DNA from: Candidatus Methanoperedentaceae archaeon
GTDB taxonomy: Archaea > Halobacteriota > Methanosarcinia > Methanosarcinales > Methanoperedenaceae
DNA length: 23,957 nucleotides
Assembly: GCA_027371625.1 (NCBI GenBank)
Contig: DAHXMQ010000119.1
Location: 1 to 23,957 of the forward strand
Direction: 5' to 3'
A model generated the notes under the pieces. It made no database searches. It worked only from the letters and a program-made list of their open reading frames with translations, and was not told the origin of the DNA. The position numbers and the translations under genes were made by a program. Each line of letters begins with the position of its first letter. Within the stretch, counting starts at the first letter, position 1. Shown here one piece after another: positions 19-16,079 of this stretch.

Positions 19-3000
19 GTGAAACGATTCAGAAGCTACGGGTTTTTTAATATTGGTAACCTGCTGGGTAAAATGAACAGGGGTGCGGGAAACATAATAA
101 AAGGTTCTCCGATAGATATACTTGTGGTCAAGAAAATGACCACAGACGTAGCAAAGAACGTTAAAGATTTGGATAATATGAACCGGGACATGAGACTTTC
201 TTCTGTGCTAAAGGGTCTCGCTGAGTCAAGAATATGGTGCAGCATGAGCGTGCTCTGGGAGCCCGTGGGATTTCGTGATTTTGCAGAAAGACTGCACCGT
301 GATGATAAGTACAGCCAGATGAAATCAAGAGACCGGCAGGTGACTGAAACGGATAACATGAGGATCGGGATGAAGTACAGTGGAGCATCGAGAACCATCG
401 TCTCGCCTCTGCAAGATCAGGATTTTATGGGGCAGACGTACCGTACGCAGGGATTGTGGAGAGGACTGCAGCGCGGGCTTTTCAATGCGAATATAATACT
501 CGCCGCTGCGGCTGAAGCCGATACGCTCGAAGAATCTTTTAGACAGCTTGAAGTCCGTCTGCATATGGCAGCGGGTATCGTAAGGGCAAGTTTCGATTCC
601 GTTGCTCTTGAGATAGTCCCGCCCATGGATGCAATGAAAGCACTCTATTTGCTCGCGCCTGTAAACTTTGAAAAGGAAGACGACGGTCTCGTGCACGATA
701 TGGTAGTAACTCACGAAATCCTGAGCGTGTTCGGGCATTTACCGGATTTTCCCCTGCCTGCCAACGTAGACCTCGTGAAGTTCCCCGACGTCCGGGGACG
801 GCTGACAAGAAGAAATCTCGGGCTGGATAAGAGTAATCTGCTATATTTTGGAAGTGCGATCCAGGACTTCAAGCACGTCGGCACGGTAGGTCTGGATGCT
901 ATTAACGATCCCAGGCTGATCGGTGTGGTGAGCGGAAAGATCGGTTCCGGCAAGACGAACACAATGAAGCAAATTCTTAAGGGAACTCTCGACGGAGATG
1001 ATTCGGGGTTGGGTGCATTCAGTGACGTTTTCATACTCGACAGGCATGGGGAATATCATACGTTGTGCTCGTTAACCGATACTGAAATATTCGTGGTTCC
1101 TCTCTGGTCTTCCGAAGCCATATTCAAGATAAACATCCTTGAACCAGTCGAGGGGCGGACCATAGGACAGGCAATAGAAGACAGCGCATCGCTATTCAAA
1201 CACACGATGGCTCAGGTCGGGCCTGTCATGGAAAGCGTAGTGAGAGGGGCTTTATACGACATTTACGACAAACATGGCTGGAATCCGAACGATGTGTATT
1301 TCAGAAAAGATGAAAGGAGCGTGCCGACGTGCCGTGATTTGCTTGACCATATCAAAAGCGGAAGGTACTGGGAACTTCGAAAAAAAGAAGGCATGAGGGC
1401 AGAGACTTCACAGAGATATAAGGAAGCGCTGTACAGCTCGATATCAAGACTTGAAAAAATCCTTGCAGCCCATGGAGAAAAAATATTCTGTCCTGAAAAC
1501 GGCAGGAGTACGGTATCTCCTTCTATAATGTTCAGAAGAAACGTTATAATACAGTTTATGTTCGGGAATAATAATCCCATAGACGATGACGCTAAGAATT
1601 TTGTTTCTTTAATGTTCATCCAGCACCTGTGGAATTACAGACAGGTAAATCCCATAAAAGTGCCCGACGATAGGTACGACAGAAAAAAGTATTATGGATA
1701 TAACGAAGCGATGAGACGTGAAATATTCCGGAAAGCAATGGAAGATCACATGGTTGAAGCGTGTAACAGGAACGGCATTTCAGTGCAACACGAGAATTTC
1801 ATAGTTGATATCGATGGTGATAATGTTACCGGGAAGGGGACAATAGAATGCGAACAAAAAAATGGCGTCAGCACCGATTCAGAAGTAAATGCCGATATCA
1901 ATGGAGGCGATGCTAAAAGCATCGCGCTCGAAGATGATGCTAATGTCAATGCCGAAATATCATCACCTTCGACACCTGCTCTGACCCATGACAAAAACCG
2001 AGATATTTTCGAGTTTGGCGAGGGTTTTACCATCACATGTTTAGATTTGGATTTAAAAACCAACACGACGGCAGAAGAAAGTTGTGATATAAACAACAAT
2101 CTTGCGCCAGTAAAACCATCTGTTGGCGATCAAAAGATAAAGAAATTATATGAAATCGTTTGCACACTGCCTGTTGAAACGCTCATCGGTGCGCCAAGGA
2201 AGATTCATACGCTTGTTGTCGAGGAAGCGCATAATATAGCTCAGGAAAGACGCGATGATCCAAATGCAATATCCTTGATGTCTCAGGTATTATCTGAGAT
2301 CAGGAAATTTGGTGAGGGTATCTGGATAGTAGACCAGGATCCTGAAATGCTTGAAGAGCGCGTTATGAAGCTGGTGAACAATCTTATAGTTCATAAGACT
2401 GATGAAGATTATGCGGTAGCAAAAATCTCTGCGAACCTGGGAATCTTAGAAGAACCGCAGATGTACGAGTTTCTTAAAATCCTTTCACCCGGCATGGCAT
2501 TGATCAAGCTGAACGGAAGCCAGGCAACGTATCCGATCGAAGTGTACTATCCAAAGTTGAAAAGACCAGAACTTACACAGGATGAAATAATAGGTATTGG
2601 AAAGAGATTCAGGGATGTCTGTGTGAATGATGAAAAGAACTTCATACCCATGCGAGTACCTGATATAAACATCGTAAAACAGGTATACGATTCCAGCGAT
2701 GCAAAAAAGGAAAGTTTTACGTCAATTCTTTTTTACGACAAAAAGACCGAACTGAAAATATCAAACCAGAAATTCGCGGTGCTGAGTATAGCCGCGTATT
2801 CTGAATACTGCGAAAAAACCTCTAAAACCAGGGAAGAGTTCATGAACGAATATCGCAAATTGTGGGGAAGAGACCTGGATGAAACCCAGATAAGCGAAAT
2901 TATCGAGATGGGGCTTCTTGAAGAGAAAAAACAGGATGAAAAAGTGTTATTATCTCTAACGGAAAAAGGAAAAGGCGCAATAGCAAGTTCACCGCATCTG

Positions 3001-3402
3001 TTCCAGGCGCCGCTTTACCATTACTATGATAGCAGAAAATCAGCGAGCTTCAAAAAAGACCAAAACGAAATCGGTGCATTTGAAGATATTTTCTCCGACG
3101 TGATGAAATCCACAGACGTGGATAAGATAAATGACAACTACCAGATACGCCTATCCCACAGACCACCATTTGCATTTATAATCACCGGCGCCGTAAATGC
3201 ATGCATTCTTTCGGCAATAGGCGCGCTGGATACGGCGATTGATATGCTGAAAAACAAAAGCATGCAGGAAGTAATATTCATTTATGAGGACAGCGCCGAT
3301 GAATCAAATCTTAAAAACATATTATTCCCCGGTCTGCGCGTGTTGACTAAAAAAGAGATAGTCAATATGCTCGAATCAGGAAAAAGCGAGGGAATTTTAT
3401 GA
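19..3402 (+). CDS. HerA/VirB4-class AAA+ motor ATPase, very large
   Basis: The protein has 1127 aa. A Walker A P-loop G-K-I-G-S-G-K-T lies at residues 306-313, and a Walker B strand L-V-V-E-E-A-H-N at about 732-739 with the Glu-Glu-Ala-His-Asn signature typical of HerA/VirB4/CedB DNA-pumping ATPases. Between them, roughly residues 590-710, sits a long acidic, Asn/Asp/Thr-rich low-complexity insertion that is absent from the compact HerA core. The ~300 residues before the P-loop and ~300 after Walker B are unassigned. No membrane segment or signal peptide is seen. The chosen GTG start has a G-rich tract directly before it, but no in-frame stop lies between it and the window edge, so the true start could be upstream; ATG 73 is an alternative. 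The gene overlaps the next by ATGA. As first gene of the pilin cluster it is the likely motor for pilus assembly or DNA transfer (inference). Confidence 0.8.
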   Translation: MKRFRSYGFFNIGNLLGKMNRGAGNIIKGSPIDILVVKKMTTDVAKNVKDLDNMNRDMRLSSVLKGLAESRIWCSMSVLWEPVGFRDFAERLHRDDKYSQMKSRDRQVTETDNMRIGMKYSGASRTIVSPLQDQDFMGQTYRTQGLWRGLQRGLFNANIILAAAAEADTLEESFRQLEVRLHMAAGIVRASFDSVALEIVPPMDAMKALYLLAPVNFEKEDDGLVHDMVVTHEILSVFGHLPDFPLPANVDLVKFPDVRGRLTRRNLGLDKSNLLYFGSAIQDFKHVGTVGLDAINDPRLIGVVSGKIGSGKTNTMKQILKGTLDGDDSGLGAFSDVFILDRHGEYHTLCSLTDTEIFVVPLWSSEAIFKINILEPVEGRTIGQAIEDSASLFKHTMAQVGPVMESVVRGALYDIYDKHGWNPNDVYFRKDERSVPTCRDLLDHIKSGRYWELRKKEGMRAETSQRYKEALYSSISRLEKILAAHGEKIFCPENGRSTVSPSIMFRRNVIIQFMFGNNNPIDDDAKNFVSLMFIQHLWNYRQVNPIKVPDDRYDRKKYYGYNEAMRREIFRKAMEDHMVEACNRNGISVQHENFIVDIDGDNVTGKGTIECEQKNGVSTDSEVNADINGGDAKSIALEDDANVNAEISSPSTPALTHDKNRDIFEFGEGFTITCLDLDLKTNTTAEESCDINNNLAPVKPSVGDQKIKKLYEIVCTLPVETLIGAPRKIHTLVVEEAHNIAQERRDDPNAISLMSQVLSEIRKFGEGIWIVDQDPEMLEERVMKLVNNLIVHKTDEDYAVAKISANLGILEEPQMYEFLKILSPGMALIKLNGSQATYPIEVYYPKLKRPELTQDEIIGIGKRFRDVCVNDEKNFIPMRVPDINIVKQVYDSSDAKKESFTSILFYDKKTELKISNQKFAVLSIAAYSEYCEKTSKTREEFMNEYRKLWGRDLDETQISEIIEMGLLEEKKQDEKVLLSLTEKGKGAIASSPHLFQAPLYHYYDSRKSASFKKDQNEIGAFEDIFSDVMKSTDVDKINDNYQIRLSHRPPFAFIITGAVNACILSAIGALDTAIDMLKNKSMQEVIFIYEDSADESNLKNILFPGLRVLTKKEIVNMLESGKSEGIL

Positions 3403-3620: not shown

Positions 3621-5336
3621 ATGAATTCAAATGTTCTCGTACTGATATCTCTGCTATCTCTGCTGGCGCTTGCGGCAGTATTGGCGGTGCCTGCAGCGGC
3701 AGAGGATGATTGCGGTGGGAATTGCCAGTGGCAGGAACTGGGTACGCTGAATATGAATAAGAATTATCAGTCAATCATCGGAAATTACGTATTCGCTGCA
3801 TACGATTATGATGGAAGGGGAAGCGTTGTTATATCTTACTATAATACCAGTTCCCCGAATGCAATAAATGAAACGATAGTGACTGAGGGCGAGTACGCTG
3901 AATCCGAAGATGGGAATTTGAGATTTTACGGCGTGCAAATAACAAACATGAGCAATATTGAGAACGGGACTGACGTTTACGGCGTTTGGCCGTGCTGTCC
4001 CAAGGCAGAAATAACGGCATGGCAGAAAACATGGATAACTCCAACCGAAACGCCTCCCAGCACCAATCCCGCTTCGTTAACATTCAGTGTTTCGGCAAGT
4101 GCAGGCGCTAGTAACGACACTTTCCTCGTCGGGGAGAATATTCCGTATACCATCGGCATACATGCCGGGGACAGCTATATGAAAAATCTGACAATATCGC
4201 TGGATACAGCAGGACTTCCTCTCTTACAGGGCGAACGGAAGATATTTTATGCGGAAATATACGCTGGCAATTCGGAAGAGCAGGACGGCACGTTTATGGC
4301 TTACGCTGCAGGTCAGCTAAACCCCGGGATAGAATGGTCATATATAGATGAAAACAACAACATTATTCGAGGAACTGCAAACGCCGCAGTTACGATTCAG
4401 CCGCCAGTAACTGTCAGAAAGTATTATGATGATAATGTTTGTACGGGCAAGAATACCACGTTTTCCATTGGGGTCGCAAATCTGCAAACCACAGCGTCCG
4501 TGGACGTGACCATAAACGACTCGCTCCCCGACGGATTTATCAGCAGTGGATTCCTTGCATTACAGAAAGAATACCATGTAGAGATTCCTCCAGGTGAAGT
4601 GAATACCATTCAGTACATAGCAGAGCCAAAAACAACGGGAGTCGTTCAGGTACCCGATGCAGAAGCCGTGTGGAAACTGGGCAGCTCGGAAGGAACTATG
4701 GATATCAGCGGCGGAACAATGAAAGTGTATGGACCTATGATTGTAGTAAGCAAAAACGCCGTTATCAAGGACCGCGGCAATATCAGCGGGAATGAAACGA
4801 TAAGCGTGACTGTAAATATCTTTAACCGGGGGGACACTGCAGCTTATGTGAAAGTGACGGACGTTCTCCCGAATGCATCAGGAATGAATGTCATTGGCTC
4901 TGACGCATATAATGGATACATAGCAGCAGGCGGCGCTGGAAATGCAAGTTACGAGTTTCACTGGAACCCACAGGACGGGACTGGATTGAACTTATCCAGG
5001 ATAATGGATACTGCACCGCAAATAGAAGTTTATGTTTCAAAACTCGATTCGATGTATCCAGAGAAGGGCCATGCTTATTCCAGTGCGTATGTTTTTGAGA
5101 AAAAAATAAGCACCGTCCCATATTCTGTAACCGGGCTGCTTAATCAGGGGCAGACAAATCAAAATCGCAATCCTCCCATTGTGTTCAATAATATCTATGC
5201 CAGCAGCGTAAATGTTCCAAACCAGCATCAATCGATGCAGTCGTCGCAGCAGCGTCAATCTCAGCCTCAGTCTTCTCCATCATCGTTATTAGAAAAAATA
5301 TCCCTTTTTCTCAAGGGACTCTTTAACAGGATTTGA
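3621..5336 (+). CDS. Secreted adhesin-like protein with DUF11/CARDB-like beta repeats
   Basis: The protein has 571 aa. A Sec-type signal sequence spans about residues 1-28, with a long Leu/Ala-rich core and Ala-x-Ala-like end before Glu-Asp-Asp. The rest is polar and beta-rich with many N-x-S/T sequons, as in glycosylated archaeal surface proteins. Two or three modules of the type 'N-x-T-F-S-I-G-V...D-x-L-P-x-G' (about residues 275-310) and 'I-S-V-T-V-N-I-F-N-R-G' (about 390-425) resemble DUF11/CARDB extracellular repeats. A Gln/Ser/Pro-rich linker precedes a short amphipathic C-terminal helix; there is no clear C-terminal anchor. Lying between the motor ATPase and the pilin array, it may be a pilus-tip or cell-contact protein (inference). 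Exact repeat boundaries are not resolved. Confidence 0.7.
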   Translation: MNSNVLVLISLLSLLALAAVLAVPAAAEDDCGGNCQWQELGTLNMNKNYQSIIGNYVFAAYDYDGRGSVVISYYNTSSPNAINETIVTEGEYAESEDGNLRFYGVQITNMSNIENGTDVYGVWPCCPKAEITAWQKTWITPTETPPSTNPASLTFSVSASAGASNDTFLVGENIPYTIGIHAGDSYMKNLTISLDTAGLPLLQGERKIFYAEIYAGNSEEQDGTFMAYAAGQLNPGIEWSYIDENNNIIRGTANAAVTIQPPVTVRKYYDDNVCTGKNTTFSIGVANLQTTASVDVTINDSLPDGFISSGFLALQKEYHVEIPPGEVNTIQYIAEPKTTGVVQVPDAEAVWKLGSSEGTMDISGGTMKVYGPMIVVSKNAVIKDRGNISGNETISVTVNIFNRGDTAAYVKVTDVLPNASGMNVIGSDAYNGYIAAGGAGNASYEFHWNPQDGTGLNLSRIMDTAPQIEVYVSKLDSMYPEKGHAYSSAYVFEKKISTVPYSVTGLLNQGQTNQNRNPPIVFNNIYASSVNVPNQHQSMQSSQQRQSQPQSSPSSLLEKISLFLKGLFNRI

Positions 5337-5339: not shown

Positions 5340-5537
5340 ATGAACAATTTCAACGATTATGGGTATATAAGTATAGAAGAAGCGATAGGAAGCATAGCGG
5401 CTATTGCAATAATCGCTATGGTGCTCTATCCGATATTCATGTTCTTCAGCTTATTGGTAGGTGCATTACGCGGGGTCTTTAATCTAATCGAAAATGCAGT
5501 GAAAGGCGGTATCCATGCTCTCATCCAAAGACTGTGA
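5340..5537 (+). CDS. Prepilin-like protein 1 of the array
   Basis: This 65-aa protein starts the run of ten related genes. Its leader N-D-Y-G-Y-I-S-I-E-E fits the family pattern D-x-G-[S/Y]-[V/I]-S-[I/L/M]-E, here with Tyr at the +1 position. Two hydrophobic helices follow (about residues 16-40 and 43-60). It lacks the D-T-V-T-R segment seen in later members, so it belongs to the more divergent end of the family. The start lies 3 nt after the adhesin stop with an AGGA-type site nearby. Inferred role: pilus subunit or a membrane component processed by the A24 peptidase at 14313. Confidence 0.7.
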   Translation: MNNFNDYGYISIEEAIGSIAAIAIIAMVLYPIFMFFSLLVGALRGVFNLIENAVKGGIHALIQRL

Positions 5538-5745
5538 ATGTAAACTCTTGTGCCGTGATCCCGGCAGTATAAGTCTGGAAAGCGCCGCTGAAATGATAAG
5601 TGCCGTTTTTTTCCTTGCGATTCTGGTCGATATATTCAAAAACATATTTGCGATGATGATAATGGCAGCTCTTGCCGCAGCGAAAGCATGGATTTGCATG
5701 CATCCTGTGATAGGATTTTTGTTAGGAGGATTTTGTCGTCCATGA
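5515..5745 (+). CDS. Prepilin-like protein 2, cysteine-rich N-terminus
   Basis: The protein has 76 aa. The leader is longer than in its neighbours and contains three cysteines (C-E-C-K-L-L-C) before R-D-P-G-S-I-S-L-E-S. Two hydrophobic stretches follow (about residues 29-46 and 46-72). The ATG lies 23 nt inside the previous gene, preceded by a GGCGGT-like site, and the stop overlaps the next start as ATGA, so expression is tightly coupled. The cysteines could bind metal or form disulfides, but the cytoplasmic side of the leader makes metal or thioester chemistry more likely than disulfides (inference). Confidence 0.65.
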   Translation: MLSSKDCECKLLCRDPGSISLESAAEMISAVFFLAILVDIFKNIFAMMIMAALAAAKAWICMHPVIGFLLGGFCRP

Positions 5746-5960
5746 GTTCAAACTTAGACGACTACGGCTCGGTATCCATCGAGACTGCGGCAAACGATGT
5801 TGGAAAGATATTTATATGGGCACTGATTATAAAGATGTTTGTAAGCATATTCTCTTGGCTGTGGTATGCAATAAGTGCACTGGCAAAAACAATATATAAC
5901 CTGTTTATAGGATCAGACGGGTTAGGGACGAGCGGAATGACTACCTTACCAGGAACGTAA
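5742..5960 (+). CDS. Prepilin-like protein 3
   Basis: The protein has 72 aa with leader D-D-Y-G-S-V-S-I-E-T, then two hydrophobic helices rich in Trp/Ile/Phe (about residues 22-48) and a short Gly/Thr-rich tail. ATG 5742 is chosen because it forms an ATGA overlap with the previous stop and has a GGAGG site about 10 nt upstream; an upstream in-frame extension overlaps the previous gene and lacks a ribosome site. It is a member of the same family as its neighbours. Confidence 0.72.
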   Translation: MSSNLDDYGSVSIETAANDVGKIFIWALIIKMFVSIFSWLWYAISALAKTIYNLFIGSDGLGTSGMTTLPGT

Positions 5961-5981
5961 TCGGAGGAGGCTAATAAATTG

Positions 5982-6266
5982 ATGGACGACGCAGGCTCGG
6001 TTTCAATCGAATCGGTTTTCGATACGCTTTTACGGATGGGGCTTGTTATGCAAATGACCGTGCTTGTAGTAACCATTATGCTAACGCTTGTGATCGTGTT
6101 TTTACTCAACGTTCTCCTCGGTAAGGTTCTCATATTTGCAAAAGTAGATGCAGCTCCTGCGGTGCTTATTGGATACCTTTTGGGGCAGACAGGATTGATA
6201 CCTGACCAGAAAATTGTAAATGCAACGCAGAACGTAATAATGGGTTTCTTGAAATGGAATCCATAA
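5982..6266 (+). CDS. Prepilin-like protein 4, highly hydrophobic
   Basis: The 94-aa protein has almost no leader: the family motif D-D-A-G-S-V-S-I-E-S begins at residue 2. A long hydrophobic stretch (about residues 18-48) and a second (about 56-72) follow, then a polar tail with an N-x-T sequon (N-A-T). A strong GGAGGAGG site lies about 12 nt before the ATG. With such a short leader only four residues would be removed if cleavage occurs after Gly, which is at the short end for prepilins. Confidence 0.72.
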   Translation: MDDAGSVSIESVFDTLLRMGLVMQMTVLVVTIMLTLVIVFLLNVLLGKVLIFAKVDAAPAVLIGYLLGQTGLIPDQKIVNATQNVIMGFLKWNP

Positions 6267-6294
6267 CTTCTCCTATTAAGCTGGAGCAACTAAA

Positions 6295-6501
6295 ATGATC
6301 GAAAAAGAAGACGCAATGCCAGACGACGGATCTGTTTCAATTGAATCTGTAGTAGATACAGCATCTCGCATGTTTCTATCCGTAGCTCTTCTGGCAGTGG
6401 CGTTTAATCTCCAGAGGCATATTATGATAGCGGGCGCAAACATTTTTGCACCCGTAGTGATCTTTATAGGAAGAATAATAGGTGCGGCTATACCAATATG
6501 A
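6295..6501 (+). CDS. Prepilin-like protein 5, two-helix
   Basis: The 68-aa protein carries P-D-D-G-S-V-S-I-E-S, then V-V-D-T-A-S-R and two hydrophobic helices separated by a short Gln-Arg-His turn. Apart from the leader this two-helix hairpin layout resembles VirB2/CedA1-type conjugative pilins in size and topology (comparison of layout only). A GGAG site stands about 10 nt before ATG 6295; ATG 6313 is an alternative that would keep the motif. The stop overlaps the next start (ATGA). Confidence 0.72.
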   Translation: MIEKEDAMPDDGSVSIESVVDTASRMFLSVALLAVAFNLQRHIMIAGANIFAPVVIFIGRIIGAAIPI

Positions 6502-6773
6502 ACATAGATGATTTCGGTTCGGTTTCCCTTGAATCCATCATGGATACTGTAACGAGAGTGTACCTATCTATTGCGGCTCTGGGTATAGCTGTTCAAATAA
6601 TTTTTCCATTTTATAACACGGTGAACACCAGAAAAACAGGTGTGACAACTGCCCTTCAAAATTACAGCAAAACTTATCTTCATGGGTTGTGCTTTAATCA
6701 GACTGGTAATCCTCAATACGGTGGCTGCCCAACACCTGTACAAACTATAATAGTAACCCCGACTCCAACGTAG
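6498..6773 (+). CDS. Prepilin-like protein 6 with external Thr/Pro tail
   Basis: The protein has 91 aa. Leader D-D-F-G-S-V-S-L-E-S is followed by I-M-D-T-V-T-R-V and a single hydrophobic helix (about residues 22-40). The remaining ~50 residues are polar, with an N-Q-T sequon, two cysteines and a Thr/Pro-rich end (T-P-V-Q-T...T-P-T-P-T), as expected of a surface-exposed, glycosylated pilin domain. ATGA overlap couples it to the gene before it. Confidence 0.72.
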   Translation: MNIDDFGSVSLESIMDTVTRVYLSIAALGIAVQIIFPFYNTVNTRKTGVTTALQNYSKTYLHGLCFNQTGNPQYGGCPTPVQTIIVTPTPT

Positions 6774-6779
6774 GCAATT

Positions 6780-7061
6780 ATGTTCCAAAAAATCCCCGTT
6801 CCGTCCAGCATTCAACCTAAAACAGTTGACATGTGTCAAGTCTTCAGCGGCGCGAGTGAAAAGGATTTCGGCAGCGTTTCTCTTGAAGCCGTTATGGATA
6901 CGGTATCCAGGGTATATCTCGGGATTACGCTGCTGGGAATTAGTTTCGCTATTTTGGAGGGCATTGCAAACAGTGTCCGCCAGATAATAGATGGGCTGTT
7001 TACATTTATAAAAGGTGCATTGGGGTTTATACCGGGCATGGGACAGACGTATTTTACGTGA
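6780..7061 (+). CDS. Prepilin-like protein 7
   Basis: The 93-aa reading has a long N-terminal extension before K-D-F-G-S-V-S-L-E-A and V-M-D-T-V-S-R-V. A hydrophobic helix (about residues 46-62) and a second amphipathic to hydrophobic segment (about 70-87) follow. The start is uncertain: ATG 6780 and ATG 6831 (76 aa) both lack a clear ribosome site. It ends the first half of the array; 196 nt of non-coding DNA follow. Confidence 0.68.
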   Translation: MFQKIPVPSSIQPKTVDMCQVFSGASEKDFGSVSLEAVMDTVSRVYLGITLLGISFAILEGIANSVRQIIDGLFTFIKGALGFIPGMGQTYFT

Positions 7062-7072
7062 CTAAACGTGGT

Positions 7073-7120
7073 GGATTCGAAGGGTGAGTGCCATCTCCCG
7101 GCTTTATCGTGGAGAGGTTC
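7073..7120 (-). repeat. IS200/IS605-like terminal hairpin, copy 1 (reverse orientation)
   Basis: This 48-nt block is an inverted copy of 13278-13327; about 39 positions agree when one is reverse-complemented. It carries a hairpin of the type CTCC-A-CG...CG-GGAG with flanking TTCGAA and GAACC elements. Structure and sequence recall the right ends (omega-RNA region) of IS200/IS605/IS1341 elements, but no tnpA or tnpB is nearby. It sits in the 196-nt gap between prepilin genes 7 and 8, where it splits the array. The assignment to that IS family is from memory of its general form and is not certain. Confidence 0.45.
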
Positions 7121-7257
7121 ATGTAGTTCATTTTACTATGAATAACTATTTATTCAAGCAGATTGTAATAACAGTTGCCAGACGCTAATATTTGACGGAT
7201 TTAACAACTATTCCATGAAAATATTGGTACTGGTTGTGAAAAGGAGGAAAAGAAAAA

Positions 7258-7539
7258 ATGTTTTCAATTGGAAGAATGAAAGCTCTCTTGGCATCTATCC
7301 CAGAATCACCCGATTCGGAAATTGAAGACTCTGGCAGCGTCTCGATGGAAACCATCATGGATACCGTAACCAGAGTGTTGGCGAGCGTAGCAGTCCTGGG
7401 TGCTATTTTCGGATTGCTGATAACAGCATATAGCGGCATTGGAAAGAATATAAAAACAGTACAGAATAGCGGACAAAATGCCATTACCACAGTATCAAAC
7501 CAGGTTGGAAATACATCATGGATCAATGCAACACCATGA
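7258..7539 (+). CDS. Prepilin-like protein 8
   Basis: The 93-aa protein has a long leader ending E-D-S-G-S-V-S-M-E-T, then I-M-D-T-V-T-R-V, one hydrophobic helix (about residues 42-62) and a polar tail with N-x-S/T sequons. A very strong site (AAAGGAGGAAAAG) precedes the ATG, in contrast to the coupled genes before it, which suggests a fresh translation start after the non-coding gap. Its motif-coding stretch 7333-7355 is identical over 23 nt to 7685-7707 in protein 10. Confidence 0.73.
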   Translation: MFSIGRMKALLASIPESPDSEIEDSGSVSMETIMDTVTRVLASVAVLGAIFGLLITAYSGIGKNIKTVQNSGQNAITTVSNQVGNTSWINATP

Positions 7540-7649
7540 ATAATACCAACAGCGTATCGCTGACAGGAATCGTGGATATTGTAACCAGGGTGCTTGTGAG
7601 TGTGGCTGCTATAGCCATCACTTTGTCTCCGCTATTTCCGGGGAAATAA
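7518..7649 (+). CDS. Prepilin-like protein 9, mini-form lacking the motif Glu
   Basis: This 43-aa ORF is too short for most gene callers but is clearly a family member: N-S-V-S-L-T-G-I-V-D-I-V-T-R-V-L aligns with G-S-V-S-L-E-S-I-M-D-T-V-T-R-V-Y of its neighbours. Thr replaces the otherwise universal Glu at +5, and Asn replaces the Gly before the expected cut. Only one hydrophobic helix is present and the protein stops just after it. ATG 7536 (37 aa) gives an ATGA overlap with the previous stop and is the likelier start; ATG 7518 is the longer option. It may be a degenerate copy or a non-processed membrane regulator or capping subunit (inference). Confidence 0.65.
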   Translation: MDQCNTMNNTNSVSLTGIVDIVTRVLVSVAAIAITLSPLFPGK

Positions 7650-7660
7650 TAAAAGCAGAA

Positions 7661-7876
7661 ATGTGCTCGAAAGGAGACGATTCAGGCAGCGTCTCGATGG
7701 AAACCATTATGGATACGGTTACTCGTGTATTTTCATCTGTGGTATTCCTCAGTTTCACTTTCTCGGTACTCCATTCAGCATGGACAGGAGTAAACTCTAA
7801 CCTTATAACCCTCAGCAGCTCTGGCAGCCAAATCAATAATGCAGCAATTGATTATATCAATAGCGGCCACCCATAA
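7661..7876 (+). CDS. Prepilin-like protein 10
   Basis: The 71-aa protein has leader D-D-S-G-S-V-S-M-E-T, then I-M-D-T-V-T-R-V-F, one hydrophobic helix (about residues 23-41) and a polar Ser/Asn-rich tail. The motif region is nearly identical to protein 8 even at nucleotide level, while the tails are unrelated, so a recent duplication or gene conversion of the leader is likely. No strong ribosome site is seen before ATG 7661, 11 nt after the previous stop. Confidence 0.72.
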   Translation: MCSKGDDSGSVSMETIMDTVTRVFSSVVFLSFTFSVLHSAWTGVNSNLITLSSSGSQINNAAIDYINSGHP

Positions 7877-7894: not shown

Positions 7895-8194
7895 ATGAAA
7901 AAAAACAATGATCTTGAAGAAACGGAAAGCAGAAAAAACAAAATCATGCTTCTTGTATGTGCAATCGGATTGATTTTTGTGCTGTCGCCGATTATATATA
8001 TCGATAGCAGCGCAAGTGCGCACAATACACCCTTGGCAGCAGGCAATGCCTCCAGACCGGCTACACTGTCCAGCCACGCTCCACAGAACGCTGCTACAAA
8101 CCATACGTCACTGCGTCCTTTCACATCTGCGCCCGAAAAAAACAATGACATTTGGTTTTTGAGTGCGGATTCAACCAGCTGGATGCTGGTATAA
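7895..8194 (+). CDS. Small signal-anchored or secreted protein
   Basis: The 99-aa protein has a charged N-terminus (K/N/D/E-rich), one hydrophobic helix at about residues 20-37 and a polar, Ala/Ser/Thr/Asn-rich remainder. It lacks the G-S-V-S-x-E leader, so it is not part of the prepilin family. An ATTTACTGGAGAC site gives a good GGAG about 8 nt upstream of the ATG. A short inverted repeat (ACCAGC...GCTGGT) lies at its 3' end. It closes the pilin operon; function unknown. Confidence 0.6.
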   Translation: MKKNNDLEETESRKNKIMLLVCAIGLIFVLSPIIYIDSSASAHNTPLAAGNASRPATLSSHAPQNAATNHTSLRPFTSAPEKNNDIWFLSADSTSWMLV

Positions 8195-8211: not shown

Positions 8212-10470
8212 ATGCAAAACTCGAATTCAAACATAGACGATTTCATTGCTCACCTCAAACGCGAGAATGGGATGAACATAACGGATGTTCTGAGAGTTCC
8301 CGGTAAGTTTCCCGAGTACAGTGATGTTTATCTTCTGCCGCAGGTTTCATTATGTCTAGAAAAGATGGGCATTACGAGGCTTTACAGCCACCAGGTAAAA
8401 GCCATTGAAGCGACGAGGGCAAAGAAAGATATCGTTCTGGCTGTAGGCACAGCAGGTGGAAAGTCTCTTTCATATGCTATTCCAATTGCTGAGATTGTTA
8501 AAAAAGGCGGTTCCGCCATATATATTGCGCCTACAAATGCTTTAATAAACGATCAGTGTGCGAATTTAAAAAAATTCATATTGAGCGTCGTTCCGGATGC
8601 TATAATTGAGAAATACAACGGTGCGGTAGATGACCACGACCGGGCGGCATTGAGAAAAAAACGGATATCTGTTTTACTAACTAACCCCGAGATGATTCAT
8701 TTATCTCTTCTCATGTACCACAGGAAATGGAGTGATTTCCTGAGAAGACTTGAACTAATTGTAGTCGATGAGTCACATTACTGGCGCGGGGTTCCAGGAA
8801 GTCACGTCGCGAACATATTCCGAAGACTTATTAGAATATGCGATCATTATGGTGCGCATCCAAAATTCTTCTGCTGCTCGGCGACTATCGGAAATCCTGT
8901 TGAGCATGCTTCTGCGCTGACTGGAAGAACGGTTGAGCTGGTGACGGGTGACAGCGCAGGAAGAAGCGAGAAGACGTATGTGCTGTACAATCCATATCGC
9001 GGACATATCGATCTTTCTGACGGCAATGACAGGAACCCGCACGGCAGCGGTGCTGATGCAGAATCGCTGAATATTTTTAAAAATCTTCTGCTGCAGGGAT
9101 TCACTCCAATCCTCTTCTCAAGGACAAGAAGTTCTGTAGAGCGTATAGCTCTTCAGGTCGTAGATATCGTGGGCGGGAAATATCCCATTGCAGCATACCG
9201 CGGCGGATTGCTGCCAGAAGAGAGGATAAAAATCGAGGCTGCCCTTAAATCCGGTGCTCTTCGTGGAGTTATCACCACGAACGCACTTGAGCTCGGGATC
9301 GATATCGGGAGTTTGAATGCATGCGTGATAGATGGTTTTCCGGGAAGCATAATGAGTTTTTACCAGCAGGCGGGAAGAGTTGGTAGGGCTGGAGGACACA
9401 GCATTGTTATTCTCGTCGCCGGAGCTAATCCGATTGATCAGTATTATGCCGAGCACCCGGATCATTTCTTCTCTTCAGGATCGGAGAACGCAACAATATC
9501 ATACAGAACTCCTGGCATACTGGCAGGTCACCTCATATGCGCAGAGCATGAGCTTCCAGCCAGAGCAGCTAACCTTGAAGTGTTCGGTAGATTGTCGGAT
9601 AATGATATGAGAAATATGGTTGAGTTGTCTGCGAGGATAAAGAAAAATCCATATTTCCATTACAAATCCATTAATATAAGGGGTGGGGGCGAGAATTATA
9701 CTATGATTACTAACGGCGGGAAAGAGATTGTGGAAGCCAACATCAGTCCTGAATATGCACGAAGAGAAGCGTTCCAGGGAGCTGTGATAGTACACGGAGG
9801 GAATCATTATATCGTGCACTCTGTTGATGATGAAAAACATATTATCCTGTGCGAAAGGACTGGCGCAGAATATCATACAAAGACAATTATGCGGCGCGGC
9901 ATATCAATGAAGAGCATACTGGCAGAGAAGAAATTCGAGGATTTTGAGATTTTCGTAGGGCGTGGAATAGTCTATGACCAGGTGCTTGGCTACAAGAAAA
10001 TCTATTACGATTTCAGAGATGATTCAAAGACTCATCCTTTAAAATCAAGCATCAGCCGCAGCGTCAGTACTACTATCTTTGGATTAAAATTATTGAGCGG
10101 AATAAAGAGTCGGATAGTCAATAACCATTTAGATTATCAGGGCGGACTGCACGGTTTGGAACATATTATCGCAAACGTATCTACACGCAGGATGCTTGTG
10201 GAGGCGACTGATCTGGGGTCATGCTGCGAAGCGGATACGGTTTATTTATACGATTGCCAGGCTGGTATGGGCGCTGCAGAAAAGGTTTATGTGACCATAA
10301 AAGAGGTTATTCGTGAAGGAAATGAAATAATCGAAACCTGCGCATGCAGGAGCACCACTGGATGCCCTCTCTGTGTCCAGAAGCTAAATTGCGAACGCGG
10401 GAACAGTCCTTTGAATAAAATGTTTACTCAGGCTATAATGGCAAAAGTGATGAAAGGGATTGAAATTTGA
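8212..10470 (+). CDS. MrfA/YprA-like superfamily 2 DNA helicase with DUF1998 cysteine cluster
   Basis: The protein has 752 aa. Motif I is G-T-A-G-G-K-S (residues 79-85; usually G-T-G-S-G-K), the DEAH-box variant D-E-S-H is at 186-189, and motif VI Q-Q-A-G-R-V-G-R-A-G begins at 385. The C-terminal DUF1998 part shows Y-D-C-Q-A-G-M-G-A-A-E followed by a four- to five-cysteine metal site C710-x-C712...C718-x2-C721...C727. This order is that of MrfA, Hrq1 and YprA: 3'-5' helicases tied to crosslink or adduct repair in bacteria and yeast (established for those families). It follows the pilin cluster by only 17 nt, suggesting cotranscription and a role in processing transferred DNA (inference). No good ribosome site is visible before ATG 8212. 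Confidence 0.88.
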   Translation: MQNSNSNIDDFIAHLKRENGMNITDVLRVPGKFPEYSDVYLLPQVSLCLEKMGITRLYSHQVKAIEATRAKKDIVLAVGTAGGKSLSYAIPIAEIVKKGGSAIYIAPTNALINDQCANLKKFILSVVPDAIIEKYNGAVDDHDRAALRKKRISVLLTNPEMIHLSLLMYHRKWSDFLRRLELIVVDESHYWRGVPGSHVANIFRRLIRICDHYGAHPKFFCCSATIGNPVEHASALTGRTVELVTGDSAGRSEKTYVLYNPYRGHIDLSDGNDRNPHGSGADAESLNIFKNLLLQGFTPILFSRTRSSVERIALQVVDIVGGKYPIAAYRGGLLPEERIKIEAALKSGALRGVITTNALELGIDIGSLNACVIDGFPGSIMSFYQQAGRVGRAGGHSIVILVAGANPIDQYYAEHPDHFFSSGSENATISYRTPGILAGHLICAEHELPARAANLEVFGRLSDNDMRNMVELSARIKKNPYFHYKSINIRGGGENYTMITNGGKEIVEANISPEYARREAFQGAVIVHGGNHYIVHSVDDEKHIILCERTGAEYHTKTIMRRGISMKSILAEKKFEDFEIFVGRGIVYDQVLGYKKIYYDFRDDSKTHPLKSSISRSVSTTIFGLKLLSGIKSRIVNNHLDYQGGLHGLEHIIANVSTRRMLVEATDLGSCCEADTVYLYDCQAGMGAAEKVYVTIKEVIREGNEIIETCACRSTTGCPLCVQKLNCERGNSPLNKMFTQAIMAKVMKGIEI

Positions 10471-10504
10471 GTTTGCGCCCCATCCTCATTTTTTTTAATC
10501 ATAG

Positions 10505-10513
10505 TTTTAAATA
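10505..10513 (+). promoter_or_regulatory. Archaeal TATA box before stem-loop RNA A
   Basis: TTTTAAATA lies about 27 nt before the first G of the 60-nt stem-loop, the normal archaeal TATA-to-start distance. The placement suggests that a transcript begins at about 10536-10538, either as a separate small RNA or as a long 5' leader of the J-domain gene. Confidence 0.5.
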
Positions 10514-10537
10514 CCATGTCGTCCATCTAACTGAATG

Positions 10538-10597
10538 GTGAGGCTCACAGCGATTTACTCCCTTCCACACAAACCATGTTTTTTCTGCGAGCCTCAC
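10538..10597 (+). ncRNA. Structured RNA candidate A (60-nt stem-loop)
   Basis: The ends pair perfectly over 9 bp (GTGAGGCTC with GAGCCTCAC), and after one A/C mismatch three further pairs form. It aligns without gaps to 13164-13223 at 39 of 60 positions, and the pair at positions 9/52 changes from C-G here to G-C in the other copy, which is compensatory. Conserved core: GAGGCT, CAGC, TAC and GCCTCA. It is not a recognised tRNA, snoRNA or riboswitch. Confidence 0.55.
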
Positions 10598-10640
10598 AGA
10601 ATCAAATTTTACAGAAAATATTCAAACTGCTTTACTTAAT

Positions 10641-10751
10641 GGCGGCTGATAAAAAAGCTACTATTGTTCAGAGAGTAGCGAACAGTGGAGAAGAAAACAG
10701 CCGCCGACAACTATATTATCCCCCCGAATAATAAAGATATTGTTCAGAGAG
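10641..10751 (+). promoter_or_regulatory. Possible leader RNA switch upstream of the J-domain gene
   Basis: An outer stem GGCGGCTG (10641-10648) with CAGCCGCC (10698-10705) encloses GCTACT (10657-10662) paired with AGTAGC (10674-10679). The 13-mer ATTGTTCAGAGAG occurs twice, at 10663-10675 inside the stem and at 10739-10751 just before the AGGATGAT-like ribosome site of the gene at 10765. GAACAGT (10680-10686) can pair with ATTGTTC in either copy (one G-U), so two exclusive folds are possible. The regulatory meaning is inferred. The 294-nt gap 10471-10764 thus holds a TATA box, stem-loop A and this leader. Confidence 0.4.
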
Positions 10752-10764
10752 GCAGGATGATAAA

Positions 10765-12171
10765 ATGAAAAACGAAAACAATCGTGATTATTATGAGGTT
10801 CTCGGAGTGGACAGAACCGCAACTAATAGCGAAATTAAAGAGGTGTACCGCAAACTTGCACAGATGTATCATCCAGATATTAACAAATCTCACGCAGCTG
10901 AAGATAAGATGAAACTGATAAACGAAGCCTATGAGGTTCTTTCGGACGAAATAAGGCGCCAGCAATATGATACCAAATGGGATGAAAAAAATCAGCAGGA
11001 CGACACGACAGCAAAATCCGCACCCACCCCGAATGGAGTGGAGTCACAGAGTGGATATGAAGACGAGGAACCCGAATACTGGCGCGCATATAAAAGAACT
11101 CATAAAGACACGAGCTATTCCACGCAAGAGTATGAAAGCCACAGTCGAAACGGACTGGCGCGCAGTCACATACTTCAGGCATTCGGTATTTTGATAATAC
11201 TTTATTCATTAATAGATTATAGGACGTTTGTTGTAGACGAACTTATGATGATGAGTTCAAAAATATGGGTTTGGCTGCTTGTTGCTATAATAATATCCAG
11301 CACATTTTATGATAATTATAAACACAGAAAAGAGCCAAAGTTACAATTTGAAAAAATACTCCGGGCATCAGTATACGTGGCGATATTCACGATGATGTCA
11401 TTGATTCTGAGCGCGGCAAGCGTGAATAATCTTGCCGTTGCGATATACGGATACGCGTTGGTTATCATATTCGTCTTGTTTGCATCTTTGGCGGCATATT
11501 GTATTATAAACACTCCTCATATTAAAAACACGATAAAAAACTGCATGGAGAAAATCAAAGCGTGGAAAATATCTGATGCCTCATCTCATTCCATTAATCC
11601 AGGCAAGTTCGCCATTTCGTCACTCTTGGGAATCTCGGTGAGCATGTTTTTGCTGTACTTGCTTTATATCTACATTGATAGATTAGACGCTTCAGCAAAC
11701 CGTATTCTCAACGGAAGCAGATTCACGCAAACAGGGTTTCAAAACTTTATTGTGCCCATACTGATCATAGAGGCGATGTTATTGTTATTGATAATGGCAT
11801 TGAGTATGCCAGGGATTTTCGTGAAGCACATCAATCACATCAGCCACAGAAAAAGTTTGTTTTACACCATTATCATCTTTGCCGGTTTAATTATCTATTT
11901 TGCCGTTAAAAACCCTGCGGACGTTTTTGGCGATAACTGGCTTTCCTTTCATATACCAGCAGCTGTTTTATCTATAGCGTGTGGACTCATGGTATACATC
12001 ACTCCAAAGGACATATCTCACCAGGAACTGGCTCGATGCACCAGGTACATCAAAAAGGGCGCGATTATTTCTGCATTGCCTTTCCTGATTATCATAGGGA
12101 TGATTGCTCTGGTAGTCGTGATTTTGTTATTCTTGTTAGGTATCTCGTCTCCATTATTAACGAGGAGATGA
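10765..12171 (+). CDS. J-domain (DnaJ-like) polytopic membrane protein
   Basis: The protein has 468 aa. An N-terminal J domain spans about residues 6-72 with the H-P-D tripeptide at 36-38 and the usual R-D-Y-Y-E-V-L-G-V start and A-Y-E-V-L-S-D end. A polar linker (about 73-135) is followed by some eight hydrophobic helices to the C-terminus. It has no G/F or zinc domain, so it is not a general DnaJ; a J domain on the cytosolic side would recruit an Hsp70 to a membrane site (established for J domains). ATG 10765 has an AGGATGAT site. Its stop overlaps the next gene's earliest start, pairing it with the phospholipase-like gene. What the membrane part does is unknown. Confidence 0.8.
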
Positions 12172-12176
12172 AAAAA

Positions 12177-13073
12177 ATGATTCCACCAACACACGAATGG
12201 ATAGTGAGGCGTGTAGTATGGGCACTGCCAAATGACATTAAAACAGAAATTGTGCCGAGAATGGAACTGATATTGAAATACGCAATAGAACCTGATAGGC
12301 TGGCTAAATTATATGACCCCGAATTTTCTTTCAAGCATCACCGACCCGATCCCGAAGGACTGGCAAAACTGAAAAAACACCTGATTACGGCGCGCCGCTC
12401 CATGCTCGAAGGAAACGTGGATGAAGCGTGCAAACAGTTCGGATTTGCAAGCCATTACCTGATAGATTCCTGCACATGGACGCATTATGCAGACGTTTTT
12501 CATAAGGGAGACAATCAGAGAGACGATGATGCTCATTCAAAATATGAAACGTATCTGGATCGCCTGAACAAGGAGAAAGGCGAAAAGATAATTAATATGT
12601 TGAAAGCATCGAGGGAAAAAGAGTGGTTCAATTCCGAGGGCGGAGTGGATTGTGTACTTGATATCCTTACAGACCAGCGCAATTCTGCGTTAAATCATGT
12701 CACTCGACCAAATGAGGAAAACGACCTGAAACAGGCATATAGATGGACTTACGCATCCGCATATAGCATTTTTGTTGATAACAACCTCCCGGAAAGGTAT
12801 TGGGAAGATGCAATCCGGCTGTATAAAGAGAAGTATATGTTAAAAGGATTTATCGATACCATATGGAGTTTTTTTTCATTGAAATGGTGGAAATCAAACG
12901 GCATTAAACGGGCACTGCAGAACGAGACGCCTGTTTTTGTTGTTATGAATCATAATGTGCCGGCAGACATTGTTTTATATATGCTATATTCGGAAAAATG
13001 TGGCTGGTATACGATACCCGTTGAATTGAAAAAAAGATTAGCAGCGGTTGTGCATTATAGCTACCGATGGTGA
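12177..13073 (+). CDS. Zinc-dependent phospholipase C / S1-P1 nuclease-fold protein
   Basis: The protein has 298 aa. All the usual metal ligands are present at the family spacing: H6, D40 with H54 (14 apart), H93-x3-D97-x5-H103, and H120-x3-E124. This matches the D-x13-H, H-x3-D-x5-H and H-x3-E spacings of Bacillus cereus phospholipase C (D55/H69, H118/D122/H128, H142/E146). No signal peptide is seen, unlike the secreted bacterial enzymes, so it may act in the cytoplasm or at the inner membrane face. The C-terminal ~120 residues are unassigned and hold a Trp/Phe-rich amphipathic patch (W-S-F-F-S-L-K-W-W-K). ATG 12177 is chosen for its GAGGAG site 8-9 nt upstream; ATG 12168 overlaps the J-domain stop. 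Substrate (lipid or nucleic acid) cannot be told. Confidence 0.75.
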   Translation: MIPPTHEWIVRRVVWALPNDIKTEIVPRMELILKYAIEPDRLAKLYDPEFSFKHHRPDPEGLAKLKKHLITARRSMLEGNVDEACKQFGFASHYLIDSCTWTHYADVFHKGDNQRDDDAHSKYETYLDRLNKEKGEKIINMLKASREKEWFNSEGGVDCVLDILTDQRNSALNHVTRPNEENDLKQAYRWTYASAYSIFVDNNLPERYWEDAIRLYKEKYMLKGFIDTIWSFFSLKWWKSNGIKRALQNETPVFVVMNHNVPADIVLYMLYSEKCGWYTIPVELKKRLAAVVHYSYRW

Positions 13074-14255: not shown

Positions 14256-14323
14256 GCTAATGTTAACATTGACCGCAATCTTTTTAAATATTGTGGTCGT
14301 AACTTGACTGTAATGTTAATATT
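14256..14323. promoter_or_regulatory. Divergent promoter with two types of palindrome
   Basis: The A/T core TTTTTAAATA (14281-14290) can act as TATA box in both directions. It is flanked by GACCGCAAT (14271-14279) and ATTGTGGTC (14290-14298), an inverted repeat with one mismatch. A perfect 12-bp palindrome AATGTTAACATT (14259-14270) lies at the predicted start of the reverse transcript, and a near-copy AATGTTAATATT (14312-14323) at that of the forward transcript. This is the layout of a regulator-controlled divergent promoter. Confidence 0.5.
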
Positions 14324-15341
14324 TATATTGGGTTTGATGTCGTGGATGACAGCCATTGCTGTTATGATATATCAAAGCTTACTGGATTTCAGAACAGGAA
14401 TGCTGAACAGAGAGGTCACTTACCTTGGCATAGCTGCGGTCGGAATATCGTTTGCGGGGGTAGATAGTCTGATTAAAAATAGCTTTGCACCGTTGGTTCT
14501 TTCACTTGTTACAGGTATCACCGCGTATTATTTCTTTACATACACGGTGTACAGGATGGGATTGATTGGTGGGGGCGATGTGCGCGTGATGTACTCTCTT
14601 GGATTCATGTTTCCTGCACTTGCGGATGTGCCTTTTCTTATCAATAAGAATTACCTGTTTGGTGTGAAAGAAACGTGGCCGTATCTAAGCATGTATTTCA
14701 ACCTGATTATTATTGCGGGGTTCTTTGTAATATTCGAAACGCTGATTGACTGCTGGAAATTTAATAAAATCAAACCCAGCAACCCAGATATAAAGTATCT
14801 TTTTACGTCTTTGATTTTTTTCACAGTATCCACAATCATGGCATTCGTTCCGGTATCCATGGGAGCGGGTATTGAAAGTGATATCCATACGATCGCTGAT
14901 TACCAGCACAACTTTTATCATATTATTCATGCACTCGTTATAATATTTACGTTCGTTATAGGCATTTATTCCCTCAAAAAATTCTCAAAAGATATTTTGC
15001 GAAAAAAATTAAAAATCCATGATTTACTTGATGTAAAACATCCAATACTGTCGTCCCAGTACGTGATTGAAGTGAATAATGAACTAAAAACAGTAAACGA
15101 TACTGAAATGACGCAGCTAAAGCGGCAGACGAAAAAATGTAAAAATGGATTTGATATCATTGTCGAAAAAAATACCGTGATTCCCAGAGGAATTGTACGT
15201 AAACTGGCATCCATGGCTCCCGATATGGAGATGGAAATAAAGACGGCTAAACCCCGTACTATTTATTTGCTTTTTGTGGTTATTCTGCTTCCCCTGGGGG
15301 ACATATTTACGATACTGAATAGAATTATCATGGGATGGTGA
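14313..15341 (+). CDS. Type IV prepilin peptidase-like aspartic protease (A24 family)
   Basis: The protein has 342 aa from ATG 14313. The two catalytic aspartates are visible: D25 in L-L-D-F-R-T-G-M-L-N-R (the D-x-R...N-R region after the first helix) and D89 in the G-G-G-D-V-R motif (GxGD type). About six to eight membrane helices are present. A soluble domain (about residues 225-305) and a final helix make it longer than the usual ~200-250 aa enzyme. ATG 14313 lies about 27 nt after a TATA box, so a leaderless mRNA is likely; TTG 14304 is the longer option. Established role of the family: removal of the leader from prepilins and archaellins. Here the ten leader-bearing proteins at 5340-7876 are obvious candidate substrates (inference). 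A ParA/MinD-like gene follows at 9 nt. Confidence 0.82.
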   Translation: MLIFILGLMSWMTAIAVMIYQSLLDFRTGMLNREVTYLGIAAVGISFAGVDSLIKNSFAPLVLSLVTGITAYYFFTYTVYRMGLIGGGDVRVMYSLGFMFPALADVPFLINKNYLFGVKETWPYLSMYFNLIIIAGFFVIFETLIDCWKFNKIKPSNPDIKYLFTSLIFFTVSTIMAFVPVSMGAGIESDIHTIADYQHNFYHIIHALVIIFTFVIGIYSLKKFSKDILRKKLKIHDLLDVKHPILSSQYVIEVNNELKTVNDTEMTQLKRQTKKCKNGFDIIVEKNTVIPRGIVRKLASMAPDMEMEIKTAKPRTIYLLFVVILLPLGDIFTILNRIIMGW

Positions 15342-15350: not shown

Positions 15351-16079
15351 ATGAAAATTATGATAACTTCGCTAACGGGCGGTACGGGAAAAACCGTTCT
15401 GGCGTATAATTTGGCCAAGAGGTTTGCAAAACCGCTCTTGGTCGACCTGACTGAAAACATGCATTTATCTATTATATTTAATGTGAAGATGTTTGCGTCA
15501 GGTTACCATACCTTCCAAGCGGAGTATAAAAATCTTGATGAATTGGTCGTTAGAAATGATGCAATTTCCTTTCTGCCGCGCGGTGCGCACGATTCTATTG
15601 AGCCAAAACATCTAAAACGTCTTATGGAAATCGAAGGGTACGATGCCGTTATTGCTGATGTTCAGCTTCTGTGCTCACAGATATTAGAAATATGCCCGCT
15701 GTTTGATATAATATTGATTCCAATGAGATGTGATATATCGGTCATGGCAGAAAATTATCTGATTGCTGCCGTATCAAAAGTACTAAACGAAAAATCGTCG
15801 TCATCGGTTATAGTGCCGGTGATTTTAAAAAACCGAGTGAATGACGCACATTCAAGTTTTGCAGTTAGAATGGATGAAAAGAAAATTAAAAAAAGTTATC
15901 CCGTATGTGATAACATCACCAATGCATATACTGTGGAACACGACCCGGACGTGCATAATAAAACATGGGAAAACCGCATGGAGAGCAGATTGGTTGAAGG
16001 AAAATATGGCACTACAATAGCTGCAATGATGAAACGGTTCGTGGAACTGACACAGGAAAAGGAAGTCAAAAAACAATGA
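15351..16079 (+). CDS. ParA/MinD-like P-loop ATPase
   Basis: The protein has 242 aa. The N-terminus M-K-I-M-I-T-S-L-T-G-G-T-G-K-T gives a P-loop at residues 9-15 of the ParA/MinD type, but Thr stands where the signature Lys of the deviant Walker A usually is. The strand L-L-V-D-L-T and the later Y-D-A-V-I-A-D-V fit switch strands of the family; the rest is divergent. Pilus and secretion loci often encode a TadZ/CpaE/FlhG-type positioning ATPase next to the peptidase, so a role in placing the machine is plausible; plasmid partition is the alternative. The C-terminus is basic and ends K-E-V-K-K-Q. Confidence 0.72.
   Translation: MKIMITSLTGGTGKTVLAYNLAKRFAKPLLVDLTENMHLSIIFNVKMFASGYHTFQAEYKNLDELVVRNDAISFLPRGAHDSIEPKHLKRLMEIEGYDAVIADVQLLCSQILEICPLFDIILIPMRCDISVMAENYLIAAVSKVLNEKSSSSVIVPVILKNRVNDAHSSFAVRMDEKKIKKSYPVCDNITNAYTVEHDPDVHNKTWENRMESRLVEGKYGTTIAAMMKRFVELTQEKEVKKQ

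Follow-up and report, generated by a model that had tools for sequence, protein, structure and literature searches.

A tandem array of prepilin-like genes with a variant leader on a contig of a Methanoperedentaceae archaeon

An array of ten small genes and their shared leader motif

We analyzed a stretch of DNA of 23,957 nucleotides from a Candidatus (Ca.) Methanoperedentaceae archaeon (assembly GCA_027371625.1, contig DAHXMQ010000119.1), here called the window, which is the entire contig C138 of a fragmented genome that is 68.75% complete. Between positions 5340 and 7876 it carries ten consecutive small open reading frames (ORFs), which an initial annotation had described as an array of tandem prepilin-like proteins sharing the noncanonical leader D-x-G-[SY]-[VI]-S-[ILM]-E. 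Elsewhere in the window are genes for a HerA-type ATPase and for a diverged prepilin peptidase of the A24 family. Residues are numbered from the predicted cut, with the Gly of the leader at position -1; a slash marks the cut in the motifs below, and ORFs are named by their start positions.

5340..5537, + strand: prepilin-like 1, DYG/YISIE, no DTxxR; weak match to DUF4244
5515..5745, + strand: prepilin-like 2, DPG/SISLE, no DTxxR
5742..5960, + strand: prepilin-like 3, DYG/SVSIE, no DTxxR; profile match E 4.2e-4
5982..6266, + strand: prepilin-like 4, group f; clade with P0082-P0084, support 100/98
6295..6501, + strand: prepilin-like 5, DDG/SVSIE; clear outside counterpart not found
6498..6773, + strand: prepilin-like 6, group a; clade with 11 relatives, support 99/100
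6780..7061, + strand: prepilin-like 7, group b; mature part 55-84% identical to the seven relatives for which it is the best match
7258..7539, + strand: prepilin-like 8, group c; clade of 18 rows, support 95/99; predicted single long helix
7536..7649, + strand: degenerate 37-aa copy, N-S-V-S-L-T-G-I-V-D-I-V-T-R-V; start overlaps the preceding stop (ATGA)
7661..7876, + strand: prepilin-like 10, related to group c

The motif is exact in nine of the ten ORFs (starts 5340, 5515, 5742, 5982, 6295, 6498, 6780, 7258, and 7661), but the claim that all ten share it does not hold for the degenerate copy (7536-7649), which has neither Gly -1 nor Glu +5. When the whole window was searched in six frames, the motif was found nine times, always on the + strand within the array; 200 simulated first-order Markov sequences contained the full motif not once and a looser core 0.15 times on average. 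The continuation D-T-x-[TS]-R-[VM], annotated as usually coming next, is present as D-T-x-x-R in six of the ten ORFs and absent from the first three and from the degenerate copy. That copy keeps the helix, with D-I-V-T-R in place of D-T-x-x-R, and a pseudogene and an unprocessed minor subunit are candidate readings of it. The nine intervals between ORFs comprise four overlaps (4 or 23 bases), four gaps of 6 to 28 bases, and one gap of 196 bases. As annotated, each protein has one or two putative membrane helices, since Kyte-Doolittle hydropathy gives one segment in seven ORFs and two in three (5515, 5982, and 6316). The tails had been called wholly different; this is true between paralogues, whose mature parts are 16 to 50% identical within the array, but some tail types are kept between plasmids.

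A family of proteins beyond the window

A profile of the ten array proteins, in which the motif was included, matched 71 proteins among 794 scored candidates (matches taken up to E = 1), six of them in the window, so that the search proposed by the initial annotation yielded 65 outside relatives. An organism label is attached to six of the 65, and every one is Ca. Methanoperedens. Across the 71 proteins, Gly -1, Ser +3, and Glu +5 are invariant, the residue at +1 is Ser in 70 and Tyr in one, and Asp +9 and Arg +13 each occur in 70; Gln at +1, the criterion for EppA substrates, occurs in none. The leader spacing, the Ser or Tyr in place of Gln, and the charged residues in a usually hydrophobic stretch had all been pointed out in the array, and they recur throughout the family. 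Position -3 is Glu in 44, Asp in 24, and Asn in 3 proteins, and position -2 is Phe in 38, Ser in 12, His in 11, Cys in 4, Ala in 2, and Tyr, Leu, Asn, or Lys in one each. The pairing general to type IV prepilins, Glu +5 with a small -1 residue, is found in all 71, and the degenerate copy does not have it.

Leaders are more variable than the N-terminal helix across the family. In group c (18 rows), identity is 26% in the leaders, 96% in mature residues 1 to 28, and 55% in the tails; the corresponding values for group e, which is near b, are 57, 94, and 87%. Residues G, S, S, E, D, T, and R and one Leu are invariant in an alignment of 42 of the 71 proteins, which were hand-picked; P0017, P0063, and P0081 are among those left out. 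A tree of 71 rows and 67 columns, few for the number of rows and with a bootstrap that had not settled, clusters the window groups a, c, and f with relatives on other contigs at the supports listed above, leaves group b unresolved, and places ORF 7661 weakly. When 26 outside proteins were compared by identity, groups a, b, c, and f had clear counterparts among them, and because of this at least four subunit types seem to predate the split of the plasmids. The separate group label d for ORF 7661 is weak, as this ORF was the best match for none of the 26.

None of the 71 family members has a precomputed Pfam domain, and PHROGs gave no match for the five pilins tried. Family scans returned weak, scattered matches, the best to FAM25 (9.8e-5, 5 of 42 members), followed by TMEM_230_134 (0.0012, 7 of 42), with E492 microcin (0.024) and a conjugal pilin-like family (0.049) further down. 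The last of these and DUF4244 (E 0.0064, ORF 5340) are the only pilin-related ones, and DUF4244 reached 16.3 bits in one of the ten ORFs, below its gathering score of 27. The weak matches are taken as chance or composition, and DUF4244, presumably an actinobacterial Flp-like family, is kept as a lead. The proposal of a new prepilin family therefore stands as regards a prepilin-like family for which no family name is known and which has several distinct subunits, whereas the accompanying idea of a new membrane-sorting signal found no support of its own.

Leader residues and the polar stretch

The Asp at -3 had been presented as a departure from the canonical leader, and this part of the proposal is not supported. 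Acidity ahead of the cut is nothing unusual in archaea: the Haloferax volcanii PilA cleavage sites DAVS and DSAV (PMC4371748) show it, as do two proteins of the genome studied here. These two prepilin-like proteins, recognized by eye, lie beside secretion ATPase and platform genes (locus L037, 7026-8426) and read DDSAVSP and DDSG-LSEM. The real oddities are a -2 residue that is nearly always uncharged and a polar stretch of residues 1 to 13 that displaces the hydrophobic segment. EppA is described as requiring Gln at +1, and Glu at +5 is reported in EppA substrates (PMC4371748); Ser at +1 together with an uncharged -2 residue is not among the sites in the part of the table in that paper that was consulted.

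A hydrophobic segment directly after the cut, a general mark of prepilins, is lacking in the family. In six of the ten ORFs of the array, residue 14 is where the best or first hydrophobic window of 19 residues begins; in the others it begins at residues 7, 7, 10, and 22. On an ideal helix, E5, D9, and R13 fall within 80 degrees and so on one face. AlphaFold modelled the 7258 protein as one helix (residues 30 to 86), with block pLDDT values of 78 to 95 over residues 31 to 80, a mean of 72.6, and a pTM of 0.33. Single long helices are typical of type IV or Flp pilins; conjugative pilins have two.

A diverged peptidase and a HerA-type ATPase accompany the pilins

The following genes of the window bear on what the array may do.

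19..3402, + strand: HerA/FtsK-superfamily ATPase, 1127 aa, N terminus cut by the contig edge; DUF87 34.9 bits, Walker A at 306, Walker B near 733
3621..5336, + strand: secreted-looking DUF11-repeat protein, candidate surface or tip protein; DUF11 27.2 bits, TIGR01451 26.7 bits, N-terminal hydrophobic segment by eye
7895..8194, + strand: small protein, by eye one hydrophobic segment at the N terminus; matches Mbov_0395 (conjugal pilin-like) weakly, 20.3 bits (cut-off 40)
14304..15341, + strand: A24 prepilin peptidase, diverged, catalytic D28 and GGGD D92
15351..16079, + strand: MinD/ParA/CpaE-like ATPase, directly 3' of the peptidase; CbiA 24.2 bits (cut-off 25.4), TIGR03371 30.1 bits (cut-off 157.85)

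The peptidase scores 25.0 bits for Peptidase_A24 as an ORF (cut-off 26.5) and 34.1 bits in the genome search, and it is the only A24 match in this incomplete genome. Searching with it found 19 proteins, one being the window's own; PF01478 is precomputed in 14 of the 18 others, and two relatives score 31.6 and 24.5 bits for A24. D28 and D92 are invariant in all 11 aligned proteins (the window protein and 10 of the 18 relatives). A sequence search of the Protein Data Bank (PDB) with the peptidase gave a best E of 0.055, to phosphodiesterases.

Co-occurrence was judged by equal contig size, with only the longest contig per protein cluster entered. On this fingerprint, HerA, pilin, and A24 are common to three contigs (47982, 79228, and 81258); the pair pilin and A24 is found in addition on 4032 and 5819, HerA and A24 on 22626, and HerA and pilin on 263892. 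Locus tags in two records place the genes close together: a plasmid record has pilins OI715_00140, _00145, and _00155 and A24 OI715_00165, and a second record has A24 WCE94_08865 and pilins _08880 and _08885. A lack of association with A24 peptidases had been named beforehand as grounds for rejecting the prepilin reading; with a diverged A24 in the window and relatives of it on contigs shared with pilins, that reading was not refuted. Co-inheritance and the motif suggest that the peptidase is cognate to the array pilins.

The ATPase has 12 relatives in the protein collection, nine of 1300 to 1366 aa and three shorter, and the three with an organism label are all Ca. Methanoperedens, one of them labelled plasmid. 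For CedD (NCBIfam) it scores 58 bits, with 600 required, and the best stretch is the ATPase part. On the question of whether it is a VirB4, the structure model was unusable (mean pLDDT 37.4) and two full-length relatives had no N-terminal Pfam match. The PDB search with the HerA profile gave only a weak HerA match (E 0.00054), and PHROGs gave a family without known function and a weak terminase match. Defence models returned helicase- and HerA-type families plus mad8 for two ATPases and nothing for the other five proteins scanned. Elsewhere in the order, a HerA-like protein of about 1090 aa (L007, G057:C2:230879-234286) lies beside a 1245-aa protein; an array next to it was considered and rejected, with no full motif around it and with the six looser matches listed judged chance, most in frames with stops.

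A full-length HerA relative (E 1e-30 or 1e-20 or better) was found in one of 31 genus genomes and one of 237 class genomes, both times the genome of the window itself; matches to HerA-type ATPase domains in general are frequent, at E 0.001 in 56 of 60 genomes. The pilin profile found, among the 237 class genomes, that same genome and one short spurious match with three stops. This near confinement of both to one genome fits a mobile element, and the window has the look of a fragment from a large plasmid of Ca. Methanoperedens, with the reservation that not all named relatives are labelled plasmid (the WCE94 records and MPEBLZ_01625 are without the label). Genome contigs scanned with the queries P0001 and A3 held no array and only one ATPase-domain match, in a Eubacterium metagenome-assembled genome at 25% identity. 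Viral contigs scanned with P0001, A3, a DNA pattern, and A4 held no array, and PLSDB plasmids gave two short ATPase-domain matches.

A proposed plasmid-borne, type IV-filament-like machine

The reading we favor, at a probability of roughly 0.6, is one of prepilins or pseudopilins: the array would encode subunits of a type IV-filament-like machine that Ca. Methanoperedens carries on a plasmid, with an A24 peptidase and a HerA-type ATPase of its own, and that perhaps serves mating contact or DNA transfer. From sequence, the array proteins are very probably prepilin-like and processed by A24, and they probably form a heteromeric filament; a role in DNA transfer has somewhat less than an even chance. 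In the mechanism we propose, precursors would be anchored in the membrane, their leader short, variable, acidic, and on the cytoplasmic side, and the plasmid's own A24 would cut after the invariant Gly, as co-inheritance and the motif suggest. Mature subunits, one of them predicted as a single long helix, would carry E5, D9, and R13 on one helix face; a secretion ATPase and a platform protein, encoded outside the window on plasmid or chromosome, would put them together. The product would be a filament, or else a short pseudopilus, made up of several kinds of subunit. The machine may, more tentatively, serve cell contact and plasmid DNA transfer, a role suggested because the HerA-type ATPase, the DUF11 surface protein, and the MinD-like ATPase adjoin.

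Several observations weigh against this reading. Mean Kyte-Doolittle hydropathy over the 71 proteins is 0.04 for mature residues 1 to 13 and 1.97 for residues 14 to 32, and for the two prepilin-like proteins encoded elsewhere in this genome the values over residues 1 to 13 are 2.27 and 1.92; because these residues are not hydrophobic in the family, the predicted cut would often lie about 13 residues from the membrane segment. This displacement is both the strongest argument against a plain prepilin and the most interesting feature of the family. The charged -2 residue of archaeal class III (PibD/FlaK) substrates is all but absent: the position holds Lys in a single protein, His in 11, and one of F, S, C, A, Y, L, or N in the remaining 59 of the 71. 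The motif's invariance across the 71 is partly selected, because the motif was part of the search profile, and six window ORFs (5340, 5515, 5742, 6295, 7536, and 7661) have no clear counterpart among the 26 outside proteins. Foldseek found no PDB match for the 7258 pilin helix. Only 5 of 44 distinct pilin contigs (by size) are also in the A24 list, although many are short fragments, and the long pilin contigs 263892 and 62723 have no listed A24, 62723 also lacking HerA. No T2SSE or T2SSF was recognized among the window ORFs scanned, the window being a fragment, and no relaxase, VirD4, or VirB6 was recognized in it.

A bolder version of the favored reading is doubtful: the family would form a third archaeal prepilin class, whose own A24 reads an uncharged -2 residue and cleaves at a distance of about 13 residues from the membrane segment. 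Its filament would be heteromeric, with a charged E5-D9-R13 stripe in the core, and would cooperate directly with a HerA-type pump in passing plasmid DNA from one archaeal cell to another. The displaced hydrophobic segment makes it possible to test cleanly which features an A24 peptidase can recognize. Because a charged -2 rule would overlook this leader, similar arrays may be hidden as hypothetical proteins. Filament and DNA-pump-like genes carried by the plasmid itself would hint at how such plasmids spread in these archaea, which consume methane and for which the study of the HMp plasmids, extrachromosomal elements compared below, hopes for genetic vectors (PMC9674854).

The best-surviving alternative, which we consider unlikely, is an ordinary adhesion pilus, for which the plasmid would supply pilins and peptidase and the host the assembling ATPase and platform, for attachment or biofilm, with HerA an unrelated maintenance or transfer gene. 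Archaeal ATPase/TadC modules are thought to serve different pilin sets (PMC4858521), and the genome has five T2SSE matches on four other contigs and five T2SSF matches in three open frames, also on other contigs, of which C43 and C151 are chromosomal as judged by eye from their neighbors; the secreted-looking DUF11 protein 5' of the array fits as well. The diverged peptidase and the unusual leader, however, suggest a dedicated machine; HerA, pilins, and peptidase occur together on three contigs matched by equal size.

Considerably less probable is that the proteins are not prepilins but small membrane proteins with a never-cleaved cytoplasmic docking motif (GSxSxE...DTxxR), for example HerA-tethering adaptors. 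Such a motif would account for a region 1 to 13 that is both polar and strongly conserved and for a -2 position without the charge that is called critical for archaeal prepilins and their peptidases (PMC4371748), but it leaves aside the pilin-like G-1/S+3/E+5 spacing, the contrast between variable leader and conserved mature part, and the A24 gene nearby in two named records. Two-helix conjugative pilins of the VirB2/TedC type are highly improbable: the HerA-type ATPase, the plasmid setting, the two hydrophobic segments in 3 of 10 ORFs, and weak Mbov_0395 conjugal pilin-like matches speak for them, but the only modelled member, 7258, is a single long helix rather than a hairpin, and Glu +5 and A24 belong to the type IV filament kind.

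Comparison with known systems

The general idea is already known, because thaumarchaeal elements, TP114, and Ups/Ced combine like parts; the family and its leader are a new variant. The closest likeness in leader is to archaeal type IV prepilins processed by PibD/FlaK or EppA, which share the short leader, the small -1 residue, A24 processing, acidic leaders (H. volcanii PilA), and Glu +5 (EppA substrates) (PMC4371748), whereas the array differs in having almost no charge at -2, Ser for Gln at +1, D9 and R13 in the helix, and a polar stretch 1 to 13. Thaumarchaeal integrative-conjugative elements have conjugation regions with VirB4, VirD4, TadC, FlaI/PilT, prepilin peptidase, and pilins (PMC6563490); they belong to other archaea, no VirD4, VirB6, TadC, or FlaI was recognized in the window, and its HerA is not a demonstrated VirB4. 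In Sulfolobales, Ups pili aggregate cells and the HerA/VirB4-type CedB/CedD import DNA (PMC11868833), but these are two separate systems, and the window ATPase falls far below the CedD threshold. The bacterial plasmid TP114 uses its own type IV pilus, with a major PilS and a minor PilV adhesin, for mating-pair stabilization (PMC9045228), with no sequence relation to the array shown.

HMp_v1 carries HerA (ORF112), ParA2 (ORF102), CCDC-167 (ORF96), Cdc24 (ORF94), and a VirB-type ATPase (ORF89) with a 7-helix partner, and the HMp authors propose DNA extrusion for the HerA cluster (PMC9674854). By gene order alone, these could match the HerA, MinD/ParA, coiled-coil, and OB-like genes of the window, and because of this possible match a VirB-type ATPase may sit just past its right end. 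The main text of PMC9674854 contains "peptidase" 0 times and "pil" 3 times (PilQ, pilus remarks, and a Pilin_N row, this subfamily being listed for HMp_v8), and none of the three mentions is of such an array.

Other genes of the window

Between pilins and peptidase, positions 8212-13073 encode a TIGR03817 helicase (487 bits, cut-off 874), a DnaJ-domain protein with membrane segments, and a Zn-dependent phospholipase C-like protein. The TIGR03817 name, "helicase/secretion neighborhood," made this block a candidate machine part; it was rejected as core because the pilin and peptidase locus tags differ by only 10 and 15 in the two other records. Locus tags usually step by 5, which suggests that the block is absent between pilins and peptidase there. 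Three consecutive genes at 20403-22925 have no Pfam match above cut-off and look OB-fold/RPA-type by eye and by position relative to the HMp Cdc24. A lipoprotein-like protein (17903-18868) and a polytopic membrane protein (19044-19793), both without a family match and encoded in the same direction as the peptidase, are candidate channel parts.

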